Assembly: GCA_025435555.1 (NCBI GenBank)
Contig: JAIWWG010000124.1
Location: forward strand, 16,079-80,078
Origin: Chytriomyces cf. hyalinus JEL632
Lineage: Eukaryota > Chytridiomycota > Chytridiomycetes > Chytridiales > Chytriomycetaceae
Reading direction: 5' to 3'
Length of the DNA stretch: 64,000 bases
Shown here: piece after piece, positions 3,326-52,640 of the stretch
Layout of the letters: each line of letters starts with the position of its first letter
How positions within the stretch are numbered: position 1 is the first letter of the stretch
Notes under the pieces: model-generated
What the model was told of the DNA's origin: nothing
Database searches by the model: none
What the model saw: the letters and a program-made list of their open reading frames with translations, nothing else
Translations under genes and position numbers: made by a program

Positions 3326-6300
3326 TCATTTATCGTCGACCGACGCGTTTTGGAGTTGCACAAGAACAACACGGATCAGCATCACCACCAACCCAGCAAT
3401 CTGCTTCTGCTGAACTACACTGATCGTTTCAAACGAATTGGCGCTCGCAACTCCTCCAAATCCAAGCTCCTGAAGATACGAAAGCAACTGCTGATTCACA
3501 TGAAGCGGGTGTGGGAGCGTTCCTTGGAACAATACGGCATCCTCCAAAATAGACGAGGACGAAGACGCTCGCGCCTCCCCTTCAAAGTCCCCATTCATTG
3601 ACGAGGATGATGACATGTTGCTTACAACGGGCTGATTTGCACTGGGGTTACTGTTGATGATTGCACTGGCGGCTGCTTGCACAACTTCCTTCCTTGTCGA
3701 CGGCGACATGACGTTGAAGCCTCCCATCACATTGTTGATATTGGTCAGGATTCCAGAAATTCCTACACTGTCCGCTGACGGTCCTTGGTACTGCGGGACA
3801 AGTTGTGGTGCAGACGGTGGAGACAGCGGCATGCATGCCATCATGGTTTGGAAAATCGAGTGCACAGCTGCAATCAAGTTGGGTGAATTTGGTCCAGTCA
3901 CAATTTCATTCATCCGTGGCAGAAGCGACTCGTATCTATGGTGATGGTTTCCAAAAAAAAAAGTGTCAACAAATTCATAGGATTTCAAAAAACCGAATCC
4001 AACTACTTACAACACAAAGACAATCTCAGGGGCTTGCAATGTTGCTTCAGCAAGGAAACCATAAATAAATATGGCCTCCGCCTCCAGTTCTGAAATCTCC
4101 AGGATACCCACCATCATCGTAAGAATCAAGATGGACCGGTTCTCATCCGTCAGTGGAGTCAGCCGATCCAGGATATCCCTAAACTTGTTGTTCTCGTCCG
4201 TTTCAAACAAACCCCCTCCAAACGTAACATAGTCCCCAACGCCGCCAGTCTTCTTTTTCGGTTGCGCCCATTCAAAGTGAAGCAAGTCTTCATCCACACC
4301 TCCCATTTTAAACAATCCTGCAAGTTCCGATGCAGGTGTGATGGGTAACAAAGGAATAATGTACCCAGCGCAATGGTCAGCGATATATTCATGGCCACTC
4401 GCCGGGACATCCTCAGGTGGATTCTTGCCAGAAACTTCCAACGCAAGTCGCAGCAGCGCAATAGTGTCCCTTCTTGTGCGCTCCTCCTCTTTCAAGCCTT
4501 TGATCACATTCGCTGCAAACGCAAACGAGAATTCAACATTGAACCAGATCCCTGTCACATCGTCAATGTCCATTGCAAGTTTTAAGAAGACTTGGCGAGC
4601 TTGCTTGAGTGTTTCTGCAAAGCCAAGCGCCTTGAACTCGCCGTGCGTATCCAGGATTTTGATAATGTCGTGAAGCATAACAATACCAGCGGCGAAAATG
4701 TACGGATCGCTGATTTGGATGAGCCCCATGGCAACCCAGAACAGCATCTTCAGCAGGCGCAGTATGTCCGGCGTCGTTGGGAGGCCGTTGACAATGTCTG
4801 TGATACACGTGATGATGCTGACATTCAGCCCAATAACTTCGGATTCGTCATACAACGCCAGGTAACCCATCAGCGATGAAAAGCTGCGGAACAGGAGATC
4901 GACGGAGCCGTTTGTGCGAGAAAGTGCGCCCAGAGTAATAAATGTGCGAGACTGGACAACACTGAAATTGAACGTTCCCTTGACAACGAGCTCAAGCCAA
5001 CGCTCTTTCCACTCTTGAGCAAGTTCTGCAAAAAAAAGCTTCCATTTTAAGAAGAGATGAAAGCATGAAATGACAGGAAAACTCACCCCAGCTGCCGCAT
5101 CCGGTTTCAATCACTTTGACAAGCTCAGAAGTTACGGTTTTCAAATCTGTGATGGACACACCATTTGAGACATCTCCGCTCACAACTTCATCCAAAAAGA
5201 AGACATTAGAGTCGCCTTTGACGGACGAAAACACGTCGGCATCATCCTTGGACGCCGTGATTCCAAAACTCGCACGGAACTTGGGATCCGCAAAACGGGC
5301 CAGAATCTCCGTCAAAGCTTGCACCGTACCATCATTCCTTCCTGGGCTGCTTTTAGCAATTGTTGCGAGACTGTGAATAATGTTGACCGCCATTCCATGG
5401 ACAGAGTGACGGATAAGAGGTTGGCCATGCCCAATCACAAGTGTCACAATGTGAAACAGCTCCGGCGCAAATTTCCTCACGTTCAAAAGGTCGTTGAAAC
5501 TCAGCATAAGCAGGAAGCGGATAAGCACAGCCACTTCCGCCCATGTTCCTTTCGCCATTAAAACTTGGATGGAGTCGGAACCAGCAAGCTCCATCAGCTG
5601 TGAAATAACACGCGACGTTACTAACTCGCTGTTTACAGAGGCAATCGATCGAAGCGTGTTGGTGATGATGGCAGCATGCACCGAACCAACACCGCTGTCA
5701 ACAGCAGTTTGAAGGAAGGTGTAAAACAGGCTGGGAACAATTTCCTTCACAGTTCCGACTGCTGCCCATAGATTGATTTGAATCAAGTGATACAGCTGAA
5801 GGGAAAGACGGTCGGTTAATTAAGTTCTTCTCTCAAGAAGAGCGAATTACCTCAGTTTCCTTGACAGTAAGTTCAATGAGCAAACGAATCAGACTTTTCA
5901 GCTTCAAAGGGATGGACATTGTCTTGATGGACGCGTCTGATCTTGCAAACATGGCCAGATTGCGCATCCAAGGTGACATGTACTCAAGACACAAGATCTT
6001 CTGGTCCATTGTTGAGCGATTGAAGCCAATCACGCATTCGATCAGAAACTCCAGCGTCAAGTTCTTTTCAGAGGTAGCCAGTTTCTGGCTAATAACTCTG
6101 ATAAATTGAAGATCGTTTGAAGGAATGTACATGTTTTTAGCGCTGAGAAGCTGGTTTCCAATCTGGAAGCCAAAGTTGGTGCTCAAGGCGTACAACAGAT
6201 TATACGAAGACACGCGCAGGTTTGGATCACGACTACCCAGATTCAGAATTGCCATATTCAGCAGCGTACCAGGGACATCCTCTGGCCGCAAGGTTCGTTC

Positions 6301-9300
6301 GTCTGTCATCAAGTTGCCACGCCTGTTCTTTTTGAAAGCGCCACGAAGCTGCTTCAAGCTTTGCAGAATTTGTATCCCCACGGGGCTGGAAACGCGAAGA
6401 GTTGACAGCGTTGTGTTGCCGATCGATCCTGTCCCGTAGACACCGCCAACTTTGACCGTGTACTCAATCAAAAACTCATTGATATCATCCGTCGTGAGAA
6501 CATCTTCAATCTCATTGAATTTGATGACGTCAGTGAGCAGTGCATCGAACCCAAGCAGCTGCTGCTTTCGCGAGTAGCTAATGTAAATGCACTCATGCGC
6601 CAACTTCAAAACTACCGGTGTCATGTCTCTTAACCCGCTGACCAAGTTGACGTCAAACTGAGTTATGACACTCCGTTCCGTGTTGATGGTGGACTTGGGC
6701 AGTTTGATTTCCGGAAGATTGATGAAATACGCGAGCTCCCGTTCATTGGCGACAAAAAAGATGCGCTTGTTCATGGGAATGTCCATCGCCCTGTGTACGC
6801 CTTTTACGAATCGCGCAAAGGCTGAATGGCAGCGGTAGATGTACAGCGTTCCAAAGTTGTTGATGATTTCAGCAGGCATCATGCCAAAGAACCGGCGAAG
6901 CCAACCCACTTCGTACTCGTTCTCTGCGGTAGTCTGTGAAACGTCCATGACGAGATCGTACTTGGAAGTCATAAAGTCCGAAAGCACACTCAGCACATAG
7001 TACATGAGGAAGTCCATGTCAATGACATGTTGTTTCACGCGCCGTGCAATGAAATATAAGACGCGATTGCCTTCTTTCGAAACTCCGCTTTCGTAAAACA
7101 GGGCTCTTCCTCGCATCAGCTCGACTGCTTTCTCGTACCCAGAACGGCTGCGAATACGGTTAAGAAATTCTTCGTATTCCTTGGGTGTTCCTTGAGAAAT
7201 TGAGGCCGGGCGGAGAGTTTTAAGGTCCCTTGTACCCAGGATTTCCCGCAGTTTCGCAGTATCCGGAGCTGGCCCCAATTGAGTAAGGAGAATAGATAAA
7301 TCCGTAAACTTGGCTTTGCGATTGGCAATCTCCCGCGGGGACAGAATAAAGTTATGCTGGTTCCCTGTCAGGGAAATTTCAACCTTGTCCAAGTTCATCG
7401 TCAGCACCCGATGAAGACGCAGCAAATCATAGTCGGACACACTGTCTGTTTTTCTGGCTTCCATTTCAGAGCGAACAAGTTTGACCGTCGCCACATCAAC
7501 CTCAGAAATATTTCTCAAGAAGCTGCGAACACGGCCAATATTTTCTTGAAGCAGCTCGTTCAGTTCAAACATGAAAAGCTCTTTTGAACCGAACAGAACG
7601 TTGTTGGCCAAGTTTTGAATCACTTTTGTAGCCAGGACCAGACCACGCAGTAACTTCTTGTCCTGAATCGGAGGAACGATATCCAACACCCATGGCGCCA
7701 CAATAATGGGACCAATGAAACGCAGGAACATGAATGCACCAACGGCATTCCCTTTGTGTTCTGGAAACTTTTGCCCAACGCGATCCGACAAAATGGAGCA
7801 AACAACTCGCAGTTCCGGAGGAAATTGGTCCGCTGATGCCAGCAAGTTATCGAGGATCCGGTTCACCAACGTCATGACATTCTTCTTGTTGTTTGCAGGG
7901 TTGTCACCCTCGACAAGTCTGTTGGGGTCGATTTCAAAGCTGAGGTTTGAGCGAGAATCGAGCAGCTGATCCAGGACAGGTTTCAAGGCACGAACGAGAT
8001 ACTCTTTTCCATACGTCTTAGAGTATACAGTTAAAAGACGCGTTGCGATTGAGTTTTGTCTGAAGAAGTTGGTTCCGTAGTCCGTTCGATCAACCTCAAA
8101 CTGAATGGCTTTCGTGAGAAGGCGCAAGGTTTGGCCTTTGGACTCAAAAATGGAAGTCAGAATGCCAGCAACGTCCTCGACATCCGAAATGCCCCCCATC
8201 GCAAGAGCGATTTGCAGATCCTCACTCACGACGGCTTCAATCAGGCGTTCATATCTTTTTTGCGTCACGACCCCTTCTTCACCCAATCCATCAAATTGCT
8301 GTTTTCCTCCCGTCTCCAGCAGATTTGTGAGCACGAGCATGAATGAAACACGGGTCTTGGAATCTTCGTGGTAACCCATTGAAAGCGAGTACTTGAGTCC
8401 AATGTCGATATTGGCAGCAAGAAGGTTTGAAAGAGCACGAATCGTCAGGTCCTTTAACGGGAAAATGTGCGCCAACGTTTCCTTTGCTGTGATGAGCTGT
8501 TCATTATATTCGCCATGCGCTTTCGACGGGTTCGCATCCAGACTCTTGCTTTCAAGCGCTTCCATAATACGGCACTTGTCCAACACTTTCAAAAAGAAGC
8601 TCAAGTAGTTGTGGAACAGCTGCCCCTTGTACTCGTTTGAGCTTTCAAAGACTTCATCCGCATCGTCTCCTTTAAACGTGGAGGCAAGAGAGGCCATCGT
8701 TTCTGTCGTCAGCTGGATTGGGAGACCATCTAGCACTGCCACGAGCGCACGCATACTTGCCAAGTCCAGATCGCGAGTCAACTTCATGTCCGCTCCACGG
8801 TTCCCTTCATCATTTGACGCACTGCGAGTCTCTTCTGTCGAGTGAACCGAGATTTCCGCATTCCAACCCAGAATAAAGTCAAGCATCCGGTTCTTGAATC
8901 GAATTTCCTGGCGCAGGGCAACAACATCCTTTTTGTTTACCACAAGTTCGACCAGCTGGCAGACCTTGGTGCGGATGCGCAAGAATGTAGGTTGCATCTG
9001 CCCACGCATCATTCCGAAACTGTTCAAGTACTGAACGAAAGAGAGGACCAGCGAACCAAAGTCGACACCGCCCGCAAGAGCCAAGAATTCGAATTGGCTG
9101 TTATAGTCGTCCGAGGAGCGCTCAAGGATGAGCTTCAGAACGGAAATGAAGGATTCGACGAAAAAGACGTTGCGCTCGTGGTTGTTGATTTCATCAGGCC
9201 CAAGAAATTTGGTCACATTAGACTCACAGGTGGAGAACAGGATATCTGAAGTTGATCATTAATAATGAGAAAGGACGAACACGCAACCACTGCAAGATAT

Positions 9301-16701: not shown

Positions 16702-19700
16702 TCATTGCTCGCCATGCCTCTTGGCACCCGCGAGTTTCCCACTTTCCATAAATCTGCTCACCCCTTCATCAAGCAATGCGCCACGAATTTTGGCGGCATA
16801 TTCCTTCGCTCTTGATTTGTCCATAAAAGGCACTGCACTGCCGGATTCATCTTGACTTGCAGTGGTCGACAACAGTTGCAGGCCATCAAGAAGATTCGGG
16901 GTTCCATTCGTACCAGCACCAGCGGCAGCGTTTGTATGGGGTGAATTATTTTCATTTCGAACTCCGGAAAATGCCTCTGCTGACGCGTGTTGGTTTAAGT
17001 TTCCGGAATGAACCAATTCGGTGACACTCGCTGGAAATTCAGGCATGCGCTCGCCAACGGCCAGTACAATATCCGCCAAAGCTGCAAGCTCACACGACCG
17101 TTCGTGAACGCCTTCCCCTGCGCTGGAGAATGAGTTCATCAGATGACTTGGATTTTGATGCATATGGGGTTGAAGGGATGATTCCCGAATGTTTGAGTGA
17201 ACTTCATCCTCAGGTTGAGAGACGACCAAGTGTCGGATATCGGCGATAACGACTGGGGCTGTTGCGGGCGCAGGGGCTGTTGCGGGCGCAGGGGCTGTTG
17301 CGGGCGCAGGGACTGCTGCGGGTGTATGGCTGCTTTCAACTGGCAAGTGCGAAGTAGGAGTCTTCTCGCCAAAATTCTGTCCATTCTCATTTGGTGGCTG
17401 GATTTCCGTTGCAATTTGTACATGCTCGCTGGCCGTTTCTAAAGGCGGGATCTCACGGCTCGCATCTTCAGTGGCAACCTGGGCGGCTTCTTTCCACTCC
17501 ACAGCAGGAGGCTGGGTAGCCGAGGAGTCGGCAGTGGCTGCAGTATGATCAGGTTCAACCTCTTTCAACTCAACCGTCACGTCTTTCACGCCCACATCCA
17601 CAACTGACATTTCCACATCATCAACAGCAACACTCTCGTCTATAACAGCAGCATGAGGAGGGACAACCGGTGCAGCATTTTCAATGTCCAAAACCATTGC
17701 AGTCTCAGCAGGTTTTTGCTCCTCGACCGTGCTTTCCTTGATGGGCTCATCCATATCCACATCCATGCTATCCACTTGAGAATGTACATCATTAACAGGT
17801 TCTTGACTCTCGATTACCCCAGCAACCTCACTGTCGGGAGCCGCAGCTTGATCGACATGGCTGGTCTCATTCGCCGCATTCTCATTTGCAACCTTTTCGA
17901 CGGCGAGAGTGGGTTCCACAGATGGCACATACGCTGAGTCTAGCACAGATTCGATAGCAACGGTATCCGTGATGGTTTCTGAAGGCTCCATGGGGTCGGC
18001 AACAGACACAGAACCTAGAGCAGCAGCATCAGCAGTGGACGGCAAGGCATCCTCAAACACCACTTCATCTTCCGTTGCAGCAGCAAACGAGTCACCCTCA
18101 TCATACGTGTCTGCAGCAGATAAAAAACTTTCTCGCCGCGCATCGTCCCCATCACCACCATCCATCGAATCGCGGTTTGAGGGCAACGCAGCAGAAGCAG
18201 GTCTACCACGCTTTTTGCGCCCTGCAACCCCCTTTTTCACGCCCACCGTCGCAAGAACATGTCCTTCAACATCAACACCGCCAGGCATAAAGTAAGGACC
18301 ATACAAGAGGTCTTCTGACACGACATCTCCTTGATACCTGTACTGCAGCACTTCTTCTCGGTTAAACGGTCCACTTTGATCGTCGCTCTCGGTGGCAGGG
18401 GGTAGAGCAGGGGCATCCTCAGGAACAGAAGTCAACAAAAATGCGCGGAATCCAACGTAAAAGCAATGCGGCAAACGCTCTTTATGCTTCCATCTGCAGC
18501 TCCGGCATTTTGGGAAATCATTGTATCGCTTCTTGTTCAGGCACTTGTCATCTTGAATGTGGAACAGGGTCCTTGGTGGAATGAGAATCTTGTTTACAGT
18601 TGGATCCGCAAGTGACGGGACAAACGGGAGATTTGGGGTCACCACCAGATCTGTAAAGTCTGAATTATGGTCCTCGAGAGCAAGTGATGGTGCGGTCGGA
18701 GATTCGCTGCATGCGCCGAGAGGGCTCATGCTTGAAGAGACACCAGACGCTAATGATACCGCCGAAGCTAGTTTAATAGATTTATAGAGCGCTGTTTTTC
18801 GAGACGCAGGAGTTGCAAGTTCTTCAGCGCCACTAAGGACGCCAGCCCCACTAGAACCGAAAGCTGGCATACTCTTATGGCGACGCAGCACGTTGCCTCC
18901 GCCGTTAGATTTGGACGGTTGATAGATTTTCGCAGTCTCAGCCTCATCGCTTGAAGACTGCAGTTCAGACATCTTTGCTCGTTTTTTTGCATGGCTACCG
19001 CCCGCACCGCCACCAACAGCAGTCTTCTTTTGGCCAGCGCCATTCACAGCGTGAGCAGCATTCGCAAGACCTCCCGCAATAAAATACGGGCCGTAAATGA
19101 GATCGCCAGGTGGCAAATCAGCAATGACGCGAAAAGCATCCGCAGCGTCCAAGTCTTTTGCCCTGAACGGTTTTTTGGAGGACTGTACTGCCGAATGAAT
19201 CGTTCCCGCACTCTCGGAGGCACTGGCAGTTGATGCAGATTCTTGTTTGTCGTCAATCGAAACAAGTTTGCCAGCGTCATCAGCATCCGTCTTTATAGAT
19301 TTGGCGGTATCTGCACCACCGGCGCCGGTTTCACCGTCCTCACTCTCTGCATCCACGACAGGATTTGCGGGCAAGCCTTTAGTTTCCGGAACTCGAACCA
19401 GAAACGCGCGAAATCCGACATAGAAACAGTGGGGAAGCCTTTCGCGATGCTTCCATATACAACTGCGACATTTAGGAAACTCCGAGTACCGTTTGCGATT
19501 CATGCATCGATCATCTTGAATGTGGTAATACGTGTTGGGCGGAACAACAAGACTGTTGACGTCCGGATTCAAGACGGAGGGAACAAAAGGCATAGGATCC
19601 GATGCAAGCAAGTCCGTGTAAGGAGGAAGCGCTTTTAAATTGCATTTCGATTCTTGCGGGCCTGCCCTTTTTTTGCCGCTGCTGCTGCTATTCATACGTC

Positions 19701-20166
19701 CTCCAGTGGCAAGATCCTGAGGAATCCTCGCATATTCCATAGACTCCTCATCCGTGTCCGTATCGTAATCGAATCCTCCAACCGCAGCAGCAGCGGCCAA
19801 ACTACTACTACCACCACCACGCTTATGCAGAGTTTTTGCCTTTTTGGAGCGGGGCAAGGTTGAACCCGAGTCTGAGTGTGGCTCGCCAAACAGGAGACGC
19901 TTACGCTCGGCTTTCGATAGATTTGCATACGCGGCGGCTTCGACGCTGTTGGTGATCCCGGACGAGGGTGTCGTCAAGTGCGATACAGACGCGGACACTG
20001 CTGCGCGCGAGGCGGGTTTGGGGGCACCCTTTTCCGGGCTTGCGCGAGCGATTTGCGGTGTAGGGTGAATCCAAGGAATTGCGGGGATCGAGGGTGAGTT
20101 GAGGTAGTAGTGGTTTAGTGTTTTGCTAGAAGGGGGGACGGTGTTCAGTGAATTATTCGGGGGCAA
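16702..20166 (-). CDS. Large unrecognised protein with a duplicated Cys-rich module
   Basis: One uninterrupted frame of ~1154 codons. The frame begins with no ATG (first start-like codon is TTG at 20166; first in-frame ATG is at 19740), so the true 5' end is probably an upstream exon or the ATG at 19740. Two copies of the same module lie at minus 19620-19350 and 18660-18400: FVPS...P(N/R)T..HIQDD.C.N.KRY, FPKCRSC.WKH.ERLPH, CFYVGFRAFL, each followed ~100 aa later by DL(I/L)YGPYF...GG. Each module has four conserved cysteines that could bind zinc. Between and after are disordered Ala/Ser/Glu-rich stretches, a KKGRPA.. basic patch (AT-hook-like) and a 400-residue acidic tail with an 18-bp repeat. 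Basic patches and acidic tail suggest a chromatin or transcription role; this is inference and no family was recognised. Confidence 0.75.
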   Translation of the reverse strand: MPPNNSLNTVPPSSKTLNHYYLNSPSIPAIPWIHPTPQIARASPEKGAPKPASRAAVSASVSHLTTPSSGITNSVEAAAYANLSKAERKRLLFGEPHSDSGSTLPRSKKAKTLHKRGGGSSSLAAAAAVGGFDYDTDTDEESMEYARIPQDLATGGRMNSSSSGKKRAGPQESKCNLKALPPYTDLLASDPMPFVPSVLNPDVNSLVVPPNTYYHIQDDRCMNRKRYSEFPKCRSCIWKHRERLPHCFYVGFRAFLVRVPETKGLPANPVVDAESEDGETGAGGADTAKSIKTDADDAGKLVSIDDKQESASTASASESAGTIHSAVQSSKKPFRAKDLDAADAFRVIADLPPGDLIYGPYFIAGGLANAAHAVNGAGQKKTAVGGGAGGSHAKKRAKMSELQSSSDEAETAKIYQPSKSNGGGNVLRRHKSMPAFGSSGAGVLSGAEELATPASRKTALYKSIKLASAVSLASGVSSSMSPLGACSESPTAPSLALEDHNSDFTDLVVTPNLPFVPSLADPTVNKILIPPRTLFHIQDDKCLNKKRYNDFPKCRSCRWKHKERLPHCFYVGFRAFLLTSVPEDAPALPPATESDDQSGPFNREEVLQYRYQGDVVSEDLLYGPYFMPGGVDVEGHVLATVGVKKGVAGRKKRGRPASAALPSNRDSMDGGDGDDARRESFLSAADTYDEGDSFAAATEDEVVFEDALPSTADAAALGSVSVADPMEPSETITDTVAIESVLDSAYVPSVEPTLAVEKVANENAANETSHVDQAAAPDSEVAGVIESQEPVNDVHSQVDSMDVDMDEPIKESTVEEQKPAETAMVLDIENAAPVVPPHAAVIDESVAVDDVEMSVVDVGVKDVTVELKEVEPDHTAATADSSATQPPAVEWKEAAQVATEDASREIPPLETASEHVQIATEIQPPNENGQNFGEKTPTSHLPVESSHTPAAVPAPATAPAPATAPAPATAPVVIADIRHLVVSQPEDEVHSNIRESSLQPHMHQNPSHLMNSFSSAGEGVHERSCELAALADIVLAVGERMPEFPASVTELVHSGNLNQHASAEAFSGVRNENNSPHTNAAAGAGTNGTPNLLDGLQLLSTTASQDESGSAVPFMDKSRAKEYAAKIRGALLDEGVSRFMESGKLAGAKRHGEQ
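17255..17308 (+). repeat. Three perfect 18-bp tandem repeats inside a coding region
   Basis: Three identical copies of an 18-bp unit (17255-17272, 17273-17290, 17291-17308) followed by a diverged partial copy. On the minus strand they encode an alternating Ala/Pro/Thr hexapeptide (APATAP) in the acidic tail of the Cys-rich-module protein. The unit is a multiple of three, so copy-number change would not break the frame; likely length-polymorphic. Confidence 0.9.
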
Positions 20167-48033: not shown

Positions 48034-48408
48034 ATAAGTGGGAAGCGCGAGTCGAATGAATGAATGAAGGCGCTCTATTAATCAACCCTGTTTTGGATTG
48101 GATATCCCCGTAAGTGTGAGTCTGTCTGTCTGCTACTCCTATGGTGCCCCAGTATCGCAACAGCAGAACAGCAAATGGCGTGTCTCAAGCTCGTTATTAT
48201 TTTTTAATTGGTCCAATTGTTGTTTCAGTGGATCAACCAATCATTTCCATCACCTCTGAAACGAAATTTTTTGTACCGAGTTTCAGTTCATTTTATTGCA
48301 GCACAAGGACGAAAGGGACAAGAGCACCGGTGCACCACACACGGCAACACCCCCCCGATCTCCGCACCTCCTGCTCCCCCGCATCCACGCATTTCCATCT
48401 GGACTGGC
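48034..48408. other. Intergenic region 5' of the first Ser-rich paralog
   Basis: No gene supported. From the SKA1 stop to the ATG of the first member of the tandem family. The open frame of the downstream gene continues upstream of that ATG to about 48208 but the alignment with the other two paralogs begins at the ATG, so the extra part is treated as leader. Confidence 0.5.
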
Positions 48409-49176
48409 ATGGCATCCCTGTCTCCACGCAGAAGATGCAGCACACCGACTGTCTCGATTCCAAGCCAAGAGCAAGTCTGTGTTCGCAAGCTTTCAAAGGA
48501 CGATGAGCTGCAGCTACACTCGCCCACAAACTGGATGCATGCCTTTGCGTCATCTCCATCGCCCACACACTCTGCATGCGCTCGAGCAGCTTCCCTGTCG
48601 CCGTTGACGGCGCAGGTGGCTGCTGTCTCCCCTTCACTCAACACACCTAATACCAAGAAAGAGTTGCCGGACAATTCTCCCGTTTTCAGCCATTCCCCAC
48701 GATCTCCTTTGAACGTACCTTTACGCAAGGCGGCAGCACCGCTTCGACGATTCTCAGTTGGAAACGAAGAGCACGATTGCATTTCGAGCGCAATTGCAGC
48801 GCTCATGCGGTCCCCTGACACGATATTTGTGCAGCAGCAGACAATGCACCAAGAGTACCCCCTCATAACGCTGTCACCTGTTGCGGAGGATATCCCCCCA
48901 CCGGCATTTGCTGAAACGGACGATGATGATGCTTCCATCAAAAATGTCGAATTTGACTGCTCATTTGGCAAGCAGGATGTACAGTCAAACGGCAGCAGCA
49001 TTCTCACTTCGCAACTGCTCAAGAGCAAGTCTGGCGAAACACACTCGCTCCCGTCGTCACCTTTGATTCGGGCAATGGCGCTACCGCGCAAGTTTTCTAT
49101 GGACTCTGGGATGGGGCTGGCGCCATCTCCGAGTGGATCTGTTCGAGTGGGTCGGTTCACAGTGCGTAGGCTGTAG
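48409..49176 (+). CDS. Tandem Ser-rich protein family, member A, 255 aa
   Basis: Single exon. No known domain; Ser/Pro/Ala-rich and probably disordered, but it shares three blocks with the next two genes. Block 1 (residues ~23-46): VCVRKLSKDDELQLHSPTNW then MHAF. Block 2 (~113-133): RRFSVGNEEHDCISSAIAAL then M. Block 3: the last ten residues, RVGRFTVRRL. The start aligns with the start of member C (MASLSPRRR vs MSLQQRR). Basic-x-x-Ser and Ser-Pro sites are frequent, suggesting a phosphorylated adaptor. Inference only; no function is assigned. Confidence 0.8.
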   Translation: MASLSPRRRCSTPTVSIPSQEQVCVRKLSKDDELQLHSPTNWMHAFASSPSPTHSACARAASLSPLTAQVAAVSPSLNTPNTKKELPDNSPVFSHSPRSPLNVPLRKAAAPLRRFSVGNEEHDCISSAIAALMRSPDTIFVQQQTMHQEYPLITLSPVAEDIPPPAFAETDDDDASIKNVEFDCSFGKQDVQSNGSSILTSQLLKSKSGETHSLPSSPLIRAMALPRKFSMDSGMGLAPSPSGSVRVGRFTVRRL

Positions 49177-49653
49177 AAGCGTGAAGGTGTGTGGGTTGTG
49201 GTGGAGAACATGAGACGGGCGTTCTTTTTCATTCATTGCGCGGGGGCTGGTCTCATACACATGGTCGATTCTCTTTTTGCGATTCCTTTCTCTTTTGTTT
49301 ACTGATCCACTGGAAGGGAGCATATCTCTTTCGATGCATTCCACCCCCCCCCCCCTCCTTCCTCTCTCTCTGTCTCTCTCTCCCCCTGCCTACTCACCCA
49401 CCCAAACAGTTCGCAGCAAAAGACTCTCTTTTCTCATTTTGCCAATCACTTTTTCACATAAAAAAAAGTCCGTTTTCCGTAAATAAAAAAAAGAAGTTGT
49501 TTTGCCCTTTATTTTTAATCACTGCTTTTTGTGGGGAAACCAATCATTCCACCAATCTCCATCTTCCATCTTTCGCAACCAACCAACCAAACCAGCAAAT
49601 CCCAGCAACAAAACTCACCCAAACTCACCACCCACCCCCACCCCCAACCGAGC
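49177..49653. other. Pyrimidine-rich intergenic/leader region
   Basis: No gene supported. Contains a C run (49346-49355) and CT-rich tract 49355-49392, then CCAACC/CACCC-rich sequence up to the ATG of member B, similar to leaders of other genes here. Small ORFs in it are Ser/Pro/Phe composition artefacts. Confidence 0.5.
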
Positions 49654-50505
49654 ATGCTGTCCCCACCCCCTCTCTGTCCTCACCAGCGACCCACTGCAGC
49701 AGCAGACGTCTTTGTCCAGCCACGCAAACTTCTGGATGTCGAGGTCAATGCTCTCCCCTCCCCCAGTCTCTGGTCGCATGCATTCGGCCCCTCCGCATCA
49801 CAGGCTGGGAGCCCCTCGCTTCACGGGACGGATGGCACCTCATCAGCCACGGGCGGTGATCTCACATGGCTGGGAGACTCTGATAGTGGTGAGGAGGGCG
49901 ACTTTGATTTATAGTGCTTTGACCATCCCCCCTCCCTGGCCTGAACTAAATCATCATTCCTCCCATATTCCACAGACAATGACGACGCAGAGACTCCCAA
50001 GCCGCGAAACTCGACTCTTCCGCGCATGAGACCCAGAGTTAAATACACTTTTGGGATCGGGAACCAACAGCATGAAACTTTTTCAAGCGCCATTGCCGCC
50101 CTCATGACGTGCACAAACCCAGACACGAATCTCGCAACGGACTCGGTCACGGTTAAAACGCCGTCCGACTTTTCTGGCCGCTCCCCACGTAAAGATGAGG
50201 AGGAGCCGCCTGGTTCCGGTGGCAACTATACCACCACCACCACCCCGAGTTTGGCGGCATCACCACCAGTATTGCTTCCAATCCGGATTCCATCCGCACC
50301 CACCTGTTATACCAGTTTGGATAGAAGAGGGGAGCGAGGTTGTGGCAACGGAGGAGGGCGGGTATTGTCCGCAAGGTCGCTTCCCGATCCGATTGTCACG
50401 ACCTTGTCACCTGCTTCTCTGAAATTTACAGGGCTTCCGGCACTTATGCTGAGTGCAGATGCTGCAGTGGAGAGAAAGGGACGGTTTGAAGTGCGCAAGT
50501 TGTGA
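49654..50505 (+). CDS. Tandem Ser-rich protein family, member B, 2 exons, 254 aa
   Basis: Exon 1 49654-49888 and exon 2 49976-50505, phase 1, 87-bp intron with TGAACTAAA branch site; the only family member with an intron. Block 1 (residues 20-44): FVQPRKLLDVEVNALPSPSL then WSHAF. Block 2 (50044-50106): YTFGIGNQQHETFSSAIAAL then M. Block 3 (50473-50502): RKGRFEVRKL at the C-terminus. Outside the blocks the sequence is Ser/Pro/Gly/Thr-rich and unalignable with A or C, so only the blocks are under constraint. Function unknown. Confidence 0.82.
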
Positions 50506-51130
50506 CCAATCAGACATTTCCTTTTATTTTTGTTATTTTCTTCCTTCCTTCTTTCCTTTCTCCCACACCCCGTGTCCCCGGCGCGCATTGCAGTCGTTTG
50601 TCATTTGGACTGCCGCGACCACCCCCCCTGTAGTTATAAAAAATGCATCCTTTCATTTTTTCTCTTTATTCCTTCTTCATGGTTTTTGCTCCCCATTTCT
50701 TTCGTTCTCAACCAACATATCGCATTTTACTCGCATATCCATCCGATTGATGCCTGCATGCACAGGACAGGCAATAAAAAACCAGTTTGTCATTGTCCAT
50801 TTCTTGAACGCGAATCAGCCCCTTCCGCCTTCCGCCAGACATGCAACCCTGAAGGCGCCTGTATTCTCTCATTCTTACCGAATCAACGGGAGCAGAGTCC
50901 GACTTGTATGAACAAACACGTAAAAAAACAAAAAGGTTCAGCAGTTGTACCTGACTATTTTGACTGACCAATATAAATTTTATTTAAAAATTATTGCAGA
51001 TTTTTTCTGTATTGCCGCAAAATCGAATCGCTCACTCACTCATCTCACTCATCTCACTCAAAACCAACAGCATCAAAAACGACCTTAAACAGCAACCGAT
51101 ACCTGTTCCACCCAGTCCCCCATACACATA
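50506..51130. other. Intergenic region between paralogs B and C
   Basis: 625 bp, no gene supported. T/C-rich on the left, A/T-rich around 50960-51010, and ending with repeated CTCACTCATCTCACTCATCT sequence (51032-51059) before the leader of member C. No remnant of a further copy of the three family blocks was found. Confidence 0.5.
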
Positions 51131-51667
51131 ATGAGTCTCCAACAACGCCGCCTCTCCACCATCGAACTCTTTGTCCAGCCCCGCAAGCTGTCAAACTCAG
51201 ACATGGCCCTCCTGCCAAGCCCCACAAACTGGCTGCACGCCTTCCCTCCCTCGCCTTCAAACAACACACGCTCCGACAGCACCTCAACCAGCTCCTCTGC
51301 ATCTGTACAGGCAACAGCATCATCACGCTCCAGCAGCAGCTCATATCCGCGAACTCGGTACCAAGTGGGACATTCGAGTCATGACTCTCTAGCAAGCGCA
51401 GTCGAAGCTCTCATGCGGCAAGATACCGAATACAATCAGGCCACCACCACCACTACCGCTGTAGACAAGGGTGCCGTTGTTTCTCCAATCTCGTTTGCGA
51501 GAGTGACGTTGCCAGATGTTGCCGGGGCGCAGTCCACGTTACGGATGGGATCTACCACGACGAGTTCCCTGGACCGTGGTGGCTTGAGAGTGGTGGGGTC
51601 AGCAAGTGATGCGACAGAGTCCTCTTGCTGCACGAGGAAGGGTCGGTTTGAAGTGCGGAGGTTATAG
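51131..51667 (+). CDS. Tandem Ser-rich protein family, member C, 178 aa
   Basis: Single exon, shortest of the three. Block 1 (residues 14-38): FVQPRKLSNSDMALLPSPTN then WLHAF. Block 2 (51356-51415): RYQVGHSSHDSLASAVEALM. Block 3: RKGRFEVRRL at the C-terminus. The order and approximate spacing of blocks equal those of A and B; the spacer between block 2 and 3 is shorter. Member C has the highest identity to B in block 1 (FVQPRKL). Ser/Thr-rich elsewhere. Same strand and order as A and B suggests local duplication. Function unknown. Confidence 0.82.
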   Translation: MSLQQRRLSTIELFVQPRKLSNSDMALLPSPTNWLHAFPPSPSNNTRSDSTSTSSSASVQATASSRSSSSSYPRTRYQVGHSSHDSLASAVEALMRQDTEYNQATTTTTAVDKGAVVSPISFARVTLPDVAGAQSTLRMGSTTTSSLDRGGLRVVGSASDATESSCCTRKGRFEVRRL

Positions 51668-51890
51668 CGAAGCCCGTTTCGTAGATTCGTCAGGGATGTC
51701 CCATCTGTACATTGTCTCCCCAACTCTCTTCTCTCTTTTCAGCGCGCATTTATTGGATACATTTTTAGTAGAATAAAAAAATCATGATGCACAGTCAGCC
51801 GCTTCTTTGGTCCCAATGTTTTTTTTATGTGTGTGTGTGTGTGTGTGGGGGTTGTTGAAAGGGAAAAATTACTTTAAAATACCAGCTTTT

Positions 51891-52543
51891 TCATGCAAAA
51901 AACTGCAACACTTTCTCCAACGCTCGTGCACGGTGCGAGATTGTGTTTTTGGTTTCCTTGGGCATTTCGGCATACGTCTGGGCAAAGCCGCTGGGCTCAA
52001 AGATGGGGTCCCACCCAAAATCAAGCGGCCCACGTGCTTTGACGATGGAGCCGTCGGTTTTGCCTTCAAAGATGTGTACCTGTGAATTTCCGAGAAAAAA
52101 CGAAAGGGGTCCGTCAAAGACAAAATAAAAAAAAAAAAAAAAAAAAGGAAATCCGCAAGCATGCAACAAACCTCCTTTCCAGGTCCCTCACAATATGCAA
52201 ATGTGCACAAAGCGTACGCAGATCGATCCTCAAACCCGTCCAGCATTCTATTAAGCCCATTATGTCCAACACCTTCAAGAAACCATTTAATGTAAGGCCC
52301 AGGCAGTGAATTGAGGGCATTGAAGCATAACGAAGTGTCTTCGACAAGCACTGCGCCTTGCACCGCCTCCGCAGCGAGTTTACACTTTTCAGCAGAGACT
52401 TCCGCTGTGGACGCTGCTTGCAGTTCGGGAAGATCAATCTTGCGGTTGACGAGGGTCAAGTGTGTGCAGCTTGCGAGGATGGCTTGGACTTCTTTCAGCT
52501 TGTTGGCGTTGCCGGTCACAAATGTGATGGTTCTGGCTGCCAT
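51891..52543 (-). CDS. HAM1: HAM1/ITPA nucleoside triphosphate pyrophosphatase, 2 exons, 186 aa
   Basis: Exons (minus) 52543-52172 and 52079-51891; 92-bp intron with a T run. Landmarks: [18 protein letters not shown] (nucleotide-binding start), [103 protein letters not shown]. All catalytic and metal-binding positions of the ITPA family are present. It hydrolyses dITP, ITP and XTP to the monophosphates and so keeps deaminated purines out of DNA and RNA. Normal length. A (GT)n run at 51831-51846 lies just downstream. Confidence 0.95.
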
Positions 52544-52640
52544 TTTCAACGATTGTTTTTTTTTTTGCACTCTTCATCCAACCAGAGTTTACTTGAATGC
52601 TTTTATATACACTGCGCACACATACATCAGTTTGACAGAT

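Follow-up and report, generated by a model that had tools for sequence, protein, structure and literature searches.

The genome of Chytriomyces cf. hyalinus JEL632 contains a gene family with at least six members, three of which (A, B and C) lie in tandem in the 64,000-nucleotide window analysed here (contig C29, positions 16079-80078, in an assembly of 37.8 Mb and 242 contigs). The other three (D, E and F) are on separate contigs. The six proteins have three blocks in common, and the last of these, close to the C terminus, carries the sequence GRFxV. RFxV is a known ligand of CCT domains (those of SPAK/OSR1, WNK and NRBP1), and two predicted WNK kinases encoded in the same genome each have a CCT domain in which pocket residues are retained. 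Judged from sequence comparison, A to F may dock through GRFxV on these two CCT domains, a reading to which we give just short of an even chance.

Genes A, B and C are all on the plus strand, and an earlier note on this DNA correctly described them as three reading frames of 255, 254 and 178 amino acids, with the proviso that B attains its 254 amino acids after removal of an 87 nt intron. Gene A (window 48409-49176) is an open reading frame in a single exon, and has block 1, of 26 amino acids, at 48469-48546 (EQVCVRKL...SPTNWMHAF), block 2 at 48748-48807 (RFSVGNEEHDCISSAIAALM) and block 3 at 49150-49173 (GRFTVRRL), with the RFxV motif at the C terminus. Gene B (49654-50505) consists of exon 1 (49654-49888), with block 1 at 49708-49785 (VFVQPRKL...SPSLWSHAF), and exon 2 (49976-50505), with block 2 at 50047-50106 (TFGIGNQQHETFSSAIAALM), which has no arginine ahead of the phenylalanine, and block 3 at 50479-50502 (GRFEVRKL). 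The GT-AG intron between them (49889-49975; GTGAGG...CACAG) was placed from the reading frame, and its borders are inferred, since three other GT/AG choices also keep the frame open (giving 248, 249 or 253 amino acids). Gene C (51131-51667) is a single exon of 178 codons, with block 1 at 51167-51244 (LFVQPRKL...SPTNWLHAF), block 2 at 51356-51415 (RYQVGHSSHDSLASAVEALM), for which short strands plus a helix are predicted, and block 3 at 51641-51664 (GRFEVRRL). The blocks occur in the same order in all three genes, as the earlier note had it; the VQPRKL that it gave for block 1 holds for B and C and fails in A, which has VCVRKL. A 314 amino acid frame with an ATG start lies antisense to A (48288-49232, minus strand) and is probably a chance occurrence. 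The plus-strand frames are taken as coding because the blocks match there and because identical residues often differ in codon.

Conserved blocks and drifting spacers

In all six members block 1 keeps the core LxSP[TS]xWxHAF, block 2 keeps [RT][FY]x[VIF]G and block 3 keeps GRFxV. Across 54 columns anchored by hand, invariance is limited to L.SP..W.HAF of block 1, a single glycine and a single alanine of block 2, and GRF.V of block 3. The blocks score 21-42 standard deviations above shuffled copies in all 15 pairs of members, and the spacers score no more than 1.4 standard deviations above them in 14 of the 15, the exception being D and E (25.6), a closer duplicate pair. The borders of the blocks were drawn manually, with the data already in view; independently of them, C alone as query reaches D and E on other contigs with E-values of 6.8e-8 and 3.7e-7. 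Conservation of the blocks beyond chance is thus borne out. The conserved spacing that had been claimed with it is not found, the two spacers being 67, 58 and 37 amino acids and 114, 124 and 75 amino acids long in A, B and C respectively, and 37-67 and 31-124 over the six members.

These could be fast-evolving, lineage-specific genes of no shared function, in which the blocks are merely relics of duplication. No homologue was found outside this genome, as such an origin would predict, but the collections searched with protein D were viral and prokaryotic (51 and 25 pattern matches, respectively, and 0 relatives). Against this origin, the spacers are unalignable in 14 of 15 pairs, and so divergent a member as F retains all three cores. 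Moreover, different codons encode roughly half of the block residues that are identical between two of A, B and C (16 of 29 between A and B, 14 of 32 between A and C, and 14 of 29 between B and C), and a comparison of D with E over 138 codons gives nonsynonymous (dN) and synonymous (dS) divergences of 0.17 and 0.94 by NG86 and of 0.17 and 0.81 by YN00, or a dN/dS of about 0.2. We regard the relic explanation as improbable, and the same observations support the view, put forward in the earlier note, that the blocks serve in binding and are kept by selection within disordered sequence.

The disorder itself is consistent with an AlphaFold model of C, for which the alignment also took in A, D, E, exon 2 of F and part of exon 2 of B; the model has an overall predicted local distance difference test (pLDDT) score of 57 and a predicted template modelling score of 0.22. 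Block 2 is the sole stretch of C predicted with fair confidence (pLDDT of 71, 88 and 78 in the three tens of residues around it); there the model shows a helix of 17 residues along with two short strands. The helix is largely lost in E. The idea that block 2 resembles the strand-helix core of CCT domains was rejected, the profile comparison giving a probability of 0.2%.

Members D, E and F were found by protein searches of the genome that were run exon by exon, so that six is a lower bound on the size of the family. D lies on contig C181 (within 197000-205000), E on C100 (within 411000-420000) and F on C1 (within 329000-336000), and the proteins range from 138 to 255 amino acids. With C as query and E-values up to 10 there were eight matches: C itself, D and E at the values given above, exon 1 of B (1.1e-5), two pieces of A (4.6e-4 and 0.226), F (0.0098) and one discarded match (2.63). 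Protein D gave ten: itself, E (1.6e-54), C (5.4e-8), F (2.3e-4), A (0.00225), two pieces of B (0.095 and 0.675) and three discarded matches (0.064, 0.37 and 0.37). Exon 2 of F gave four, namely itself, D (1.0e-4), C (0.0186) and E (0.635). The first exon of F, added by way of a 60 nt GT-AG intron, supplies a block 1 of 26 columns, its length in the other members. At the DNA level, the pattern PxxWxHAF with a Thr/Ser-like second codon occurs at seven sites in the genome, which are the six family genes and one site with an in-frame TGA; the reversed control pattern occurs once. The discarded matches, at C219:11123 (query C, 2.63) and at C100:31924 (0.064), C151:4449 and C166:225317 (both 0.37; query D), have neither P[TS]xWxHAF nor GRFxV in any of the six frames.

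The family is not confined to the locus described in the earlier note, members being present on three other contigs of this genome. The note called the family unrecognised, which stands as regards domain databases: a Pfam search at E-values up to 1 with A, C, D, E, exon 2 of F and two pieces of B gave a single match, for C (0.05, below the cut-off), and NCBIfam, likewise up to 1 and with the same queries except B, gave one for C (0.031, far below the cut-off). A profile of the family compared with solved structures gave a best E-value of 0.13. The description no longer applies to block 3, which is identified as an RFxV motif in a genome with WNK CCT domains.

The tandem order of A, B and C agrees with the local duplication proposed for them and, with the block 3 that ends at the stop codon in each, suggests a single local ancestor; a tree of the 54 columns does not resolve the grouping of the three. 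The same tree places D with E (support 87/85, below the method's own strict mark). Local duplication does not account for the whole family, as D, E and F are elsewhere and D and E sit in duplicated segments. Besides the two genes, the loci of D and E have in common an 891-column stretch with 78% identity. F is directly downstream of a putative class III nucleotide cyclase domain, recognised by eye.

The RFxV motif and two WNK kinases

GRFxV is kept in all six members amid spacers that can no longer be aligned, and starts 8 to 15 residues from the C terminus. When each protein was shuffled 20,000 times, 0 to 0.025% of the copies had GRF[^P][VI] among their last 20 residues, although the six members are homologous and are hence not independent in such statistics. 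The glycine ahead of RFx[VI] fits what we take to be the longer consensus of the SPAK/OSR1-binding motif. The CCT-docking core has been given as RFXV/I (PMC4512625).

The motif of A, B and C runs exactly to the stop codon, just as the earlier note described it, and GRFxVR[RK]L with a stop codon directly after it occurs at three sites in the whole genome, all of them in the A-B-C locus (the reversed control pattern occurs once). This placement raises the alternative that the three proteins carry a C-terminal peptide ligand of the PDZ type, VR[RK]L-COOH, in place of an internal RFxV motif. However, block 3 ends at the stop codon only in these three; D, E and F have 7, 7 and 2 further residues after the eight of the block, and in them GRFxV is retained while R[RK]L is not. 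A C-terminal ligand is therefore most improbable.

Block 2 may be a second motif of the RPhi type leading into a helix, as it starts with R[FY]x[VIF] in five of the six members (R[FY]x[VI] in A, C, E and F, and RFSF in D). By analogy with TSC22D, a two-site adaptor is possible. B has TFGI at this position and speaks against a strict two-RPhi rule.

The Pfam model for the CCT domain (PF12202, OSR1_C) matches the genome above the cut-off at two sites, on contigs C221 (2.3e-5) and C40 (4.6e-5), and in none of 14 control genomes. At E-values up to 10 there is one further site (0.19), in an open reading frame that by eye is RasGEF-like, and one control genome also has a match, below the cut-off. 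Each of the two CCT domains lies in a long frame whose opening part is the end of a kinase domain. On C221, the first kinase exon hits human WNK1 in the Protein Data Bank at 7.4e-33, and 15 of the 17 chains listed are WNK1 or WNK3, the next being at 1.9e-14. WNK kinases are recognised by the absence of a lysine at the beta-3 position and by a lysine in the glycine-rich loop, and both fungal kinases have this arrangement, as seen in the alignment for C221 and in the exon as read for C40. At beta-3, C221 has an asparagine where WNK1 has its cysteine (VAWNQL compared with VAWCEL), and its glycine-rich loop reads GKGAYKEVYKA compared with GRGSFKTVYKG in WNK1; the same stretch is present in the C40 exon. 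By these features the genome encodes two putative WNK kinases with a CCT domain. The two loci align over 3906 columns with 70% identity. An old segmental or genome duplication that gave rise to them and to the D and E loci is possible.

When the fungal CCT domains are aligned with human OSR1, F52, D59, E67 and L73 are identical in both copies. The first three correspond to what we take to be OSR1 F452, D459 and E467, presumably residues that hold the motif, and L73 aligns with what is counted as the pocket residue L473. In OSR1, L473 lies beneath the phenylalanine of the motif and holds it (PMC4512625), and in NRBP1 two glutamates eight residues apart hold the motif arginine (PMC12266122), the same spacing as that of D59 and E67. 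The predicted structure of the WNK CCT domain is a weak model, so that the absence of OSR1 from its fold-search matches is not evidence. The CCTL2 model did not match at 0.001 in the long C40 frame, and the C221 kinase was scanned for it up to the CCT domain.

In the two long stretches scanned of each WNK gene, which do not take in the N-terminal exons or one short exon in the middle, there is no RFx[VI], and an RYNV lies inside each kinase domain. If RFx[VI] is lacking from the whole genes, then the CCT pocket would be filled in trans by another protein. No CCT domain of the OSR1/SPAK type was recognised, the two WNK domains being the only ones above the cut-off, with the limits that a CCT domain split by an intron could be missed and that kinases were not surveyed; the CCT of WNK itself is for this reason the likely reader of the motif. 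The cotransporter domain PF03522 has no match in the genome and none in the control genomes either, and is uninformative.

In the scenario that we favour, mostly disordered adaptors of the A-F family would dock by the GRFxV near their C termini on the CCT domain located C-terminal to the kinase domain in WNK. Block 1 (LxSP[TS]xWxHAF) would be a further docking site for some partner, and a client on block 1 or 2 would be brought to WNK, or WNK molecules linked, as by the long TSC22D proteins in animals. Such docking may have a role in osmotic or volume signalling. Our confidence in the scenario allows for the fact that the scan for RFxV covered the WNK genes only in part. Alternatively, the family and its docking motifs could be as described, with GRFxV binding something other than the WNK CCT, either another scaffold or, by folding back, blocks 1 and 2 of the same protein. 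Blocks 1 and 2 are the longer ones, are also well kept and have no meaningful Pfam or NCBIfam match, which leaves room for a main partner other than WNK. Yet GRF.V, the part of block 3 that is invariant in the six, is the core of a CCT ligand, and the genome has two CCT-bearing WNK kinases with the pocket positions kept. We consider this alternative unlikely, though deserving of some weight.

Other genes in the window

A Ham1/ITPase-like gene adjoins C on the minus strand (51869-52570). Its Pfam match ends at profile position 127 of 186, ahead of a run of phenylalanine codons, perhaps at an intron. The window also contains a chitin synthase gene (Chitin_synth_2, PF03142, 9.4e-107), a neurofibromin-like protein with RasGAP and CRAL-TRIO domains (5833-9216, minus strand) and a 1154 amino acid open reading frame (16702-20166, minus strand). 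The last has two copies of the Cys-containing repeat DDxCxNxKRYxxFPKCRSCxWKHxERLPHCFYVGFRAF and no Pfam match at 0.001.

Comparison with known systems

WNK kinases of animals are sensors of salt and volume. A 2016 review gave Penicillium marneffei as the sole unicellular organism in which a WNK1 orthologue had then been identified (PMC5346417), and WNK signalling in fungi accordingly looks little explored; a paper on microsporidian kinomes mentions WNK (PMC4280135). None of the papers found by literature searches, in a collection with few subscription journals, deals by its title and the opening lines of its abstract with a fungal RFxV adaptor or a fungal WNK CCT domain. The physiological role of WNK CCT-like domains was described as unclear in a 2025 paper, in which TSC22D adaptors use one of them in human cells (PMC12266122). 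It is conceivable, if rather doubtful, that this fungus has a WNK pathway for osmotic or volume control with no recognisable SPAK/OSR1-type CCT kinase, in which disordered RFxV adaptors, forming an expanded family of its own, act straight on the WNK CCT as an independently arisen counterpart of TSC22D. Were this so, it would suggest that docking of adaptors is an old function of WNK CCT domains. A fungus that combines WNK CCT domains and a family of small RFxV proteins with no recognised OSR1/SPAK CCT and no RFx[VI] in the WNK exons read would offer a stripped-down system for direct tests of the adaptor role.

Compared with WNK kinases that have a CCTL1 domain, the kinase on C221 has an N-lobe that matches human WNK1 and WNK3, and PF12202 is found further down in both fungal copies, whereas C221 has its asparagine in place of the beta-3 cysteine and both fungal kinases lack RFx[VI] in the exons read. 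The RFx[VI] core common to all six members of the family is that of the SPAK/OSR1-binding motif RFx[V/I] of cation-chloride cotransporters and WNK tails; the difference would lie in the reader, which here is likely to be the CCT of WNK itself.

The closest parallel in the proposed working is to the long TSC22D proteins, of which Bunched is the Drosophila member. These are mostly disordered, and their RPhi motifs RFRV and RWTC bind the CCT domains of WNK and NRBP1 (PMC12266122, PMC12266109). In human cells TSC22D2 and TSC22D4 bind WNK1 CCTL1 through RFRV, and modelling and tests have assigned one of the two motifs to WNK1 CCTL1 and the other to the NRBP1 CCT (PMC12266122). The A-F family could on these grounds be a remote TSC22D homologue that has lost the TSC22 domain, given the common logic of long disorder, RPhi motifs (TSC22D motif A being RFRV; PMC12266122) and WNK as the proposed partner. 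However, the TSC22 domain (PF01166) was not found in A, C, D, E, exon 2 of F or two pieces of B. The genome has 15 weak TSC22 sites, none over the cut-off, and 10 of the 14 control genomes match too. Blocks 1 and 2, moreover, are unlike the RPhi region of TSC22D, and such descent seems a poor prospect. The A-F proteins thus resemble TSC22D2 and TSC22D4 in their disorder and in a conserved motif of the RPhi type, and differ in having no TSC22 dimerisation domain in the pieces scanned, in the position of GRFxV near the C terminus and in their smaller size. By the tests made they are not members of the TSC22D family, and in the model proposed they would work in a TSC22D-like manner.
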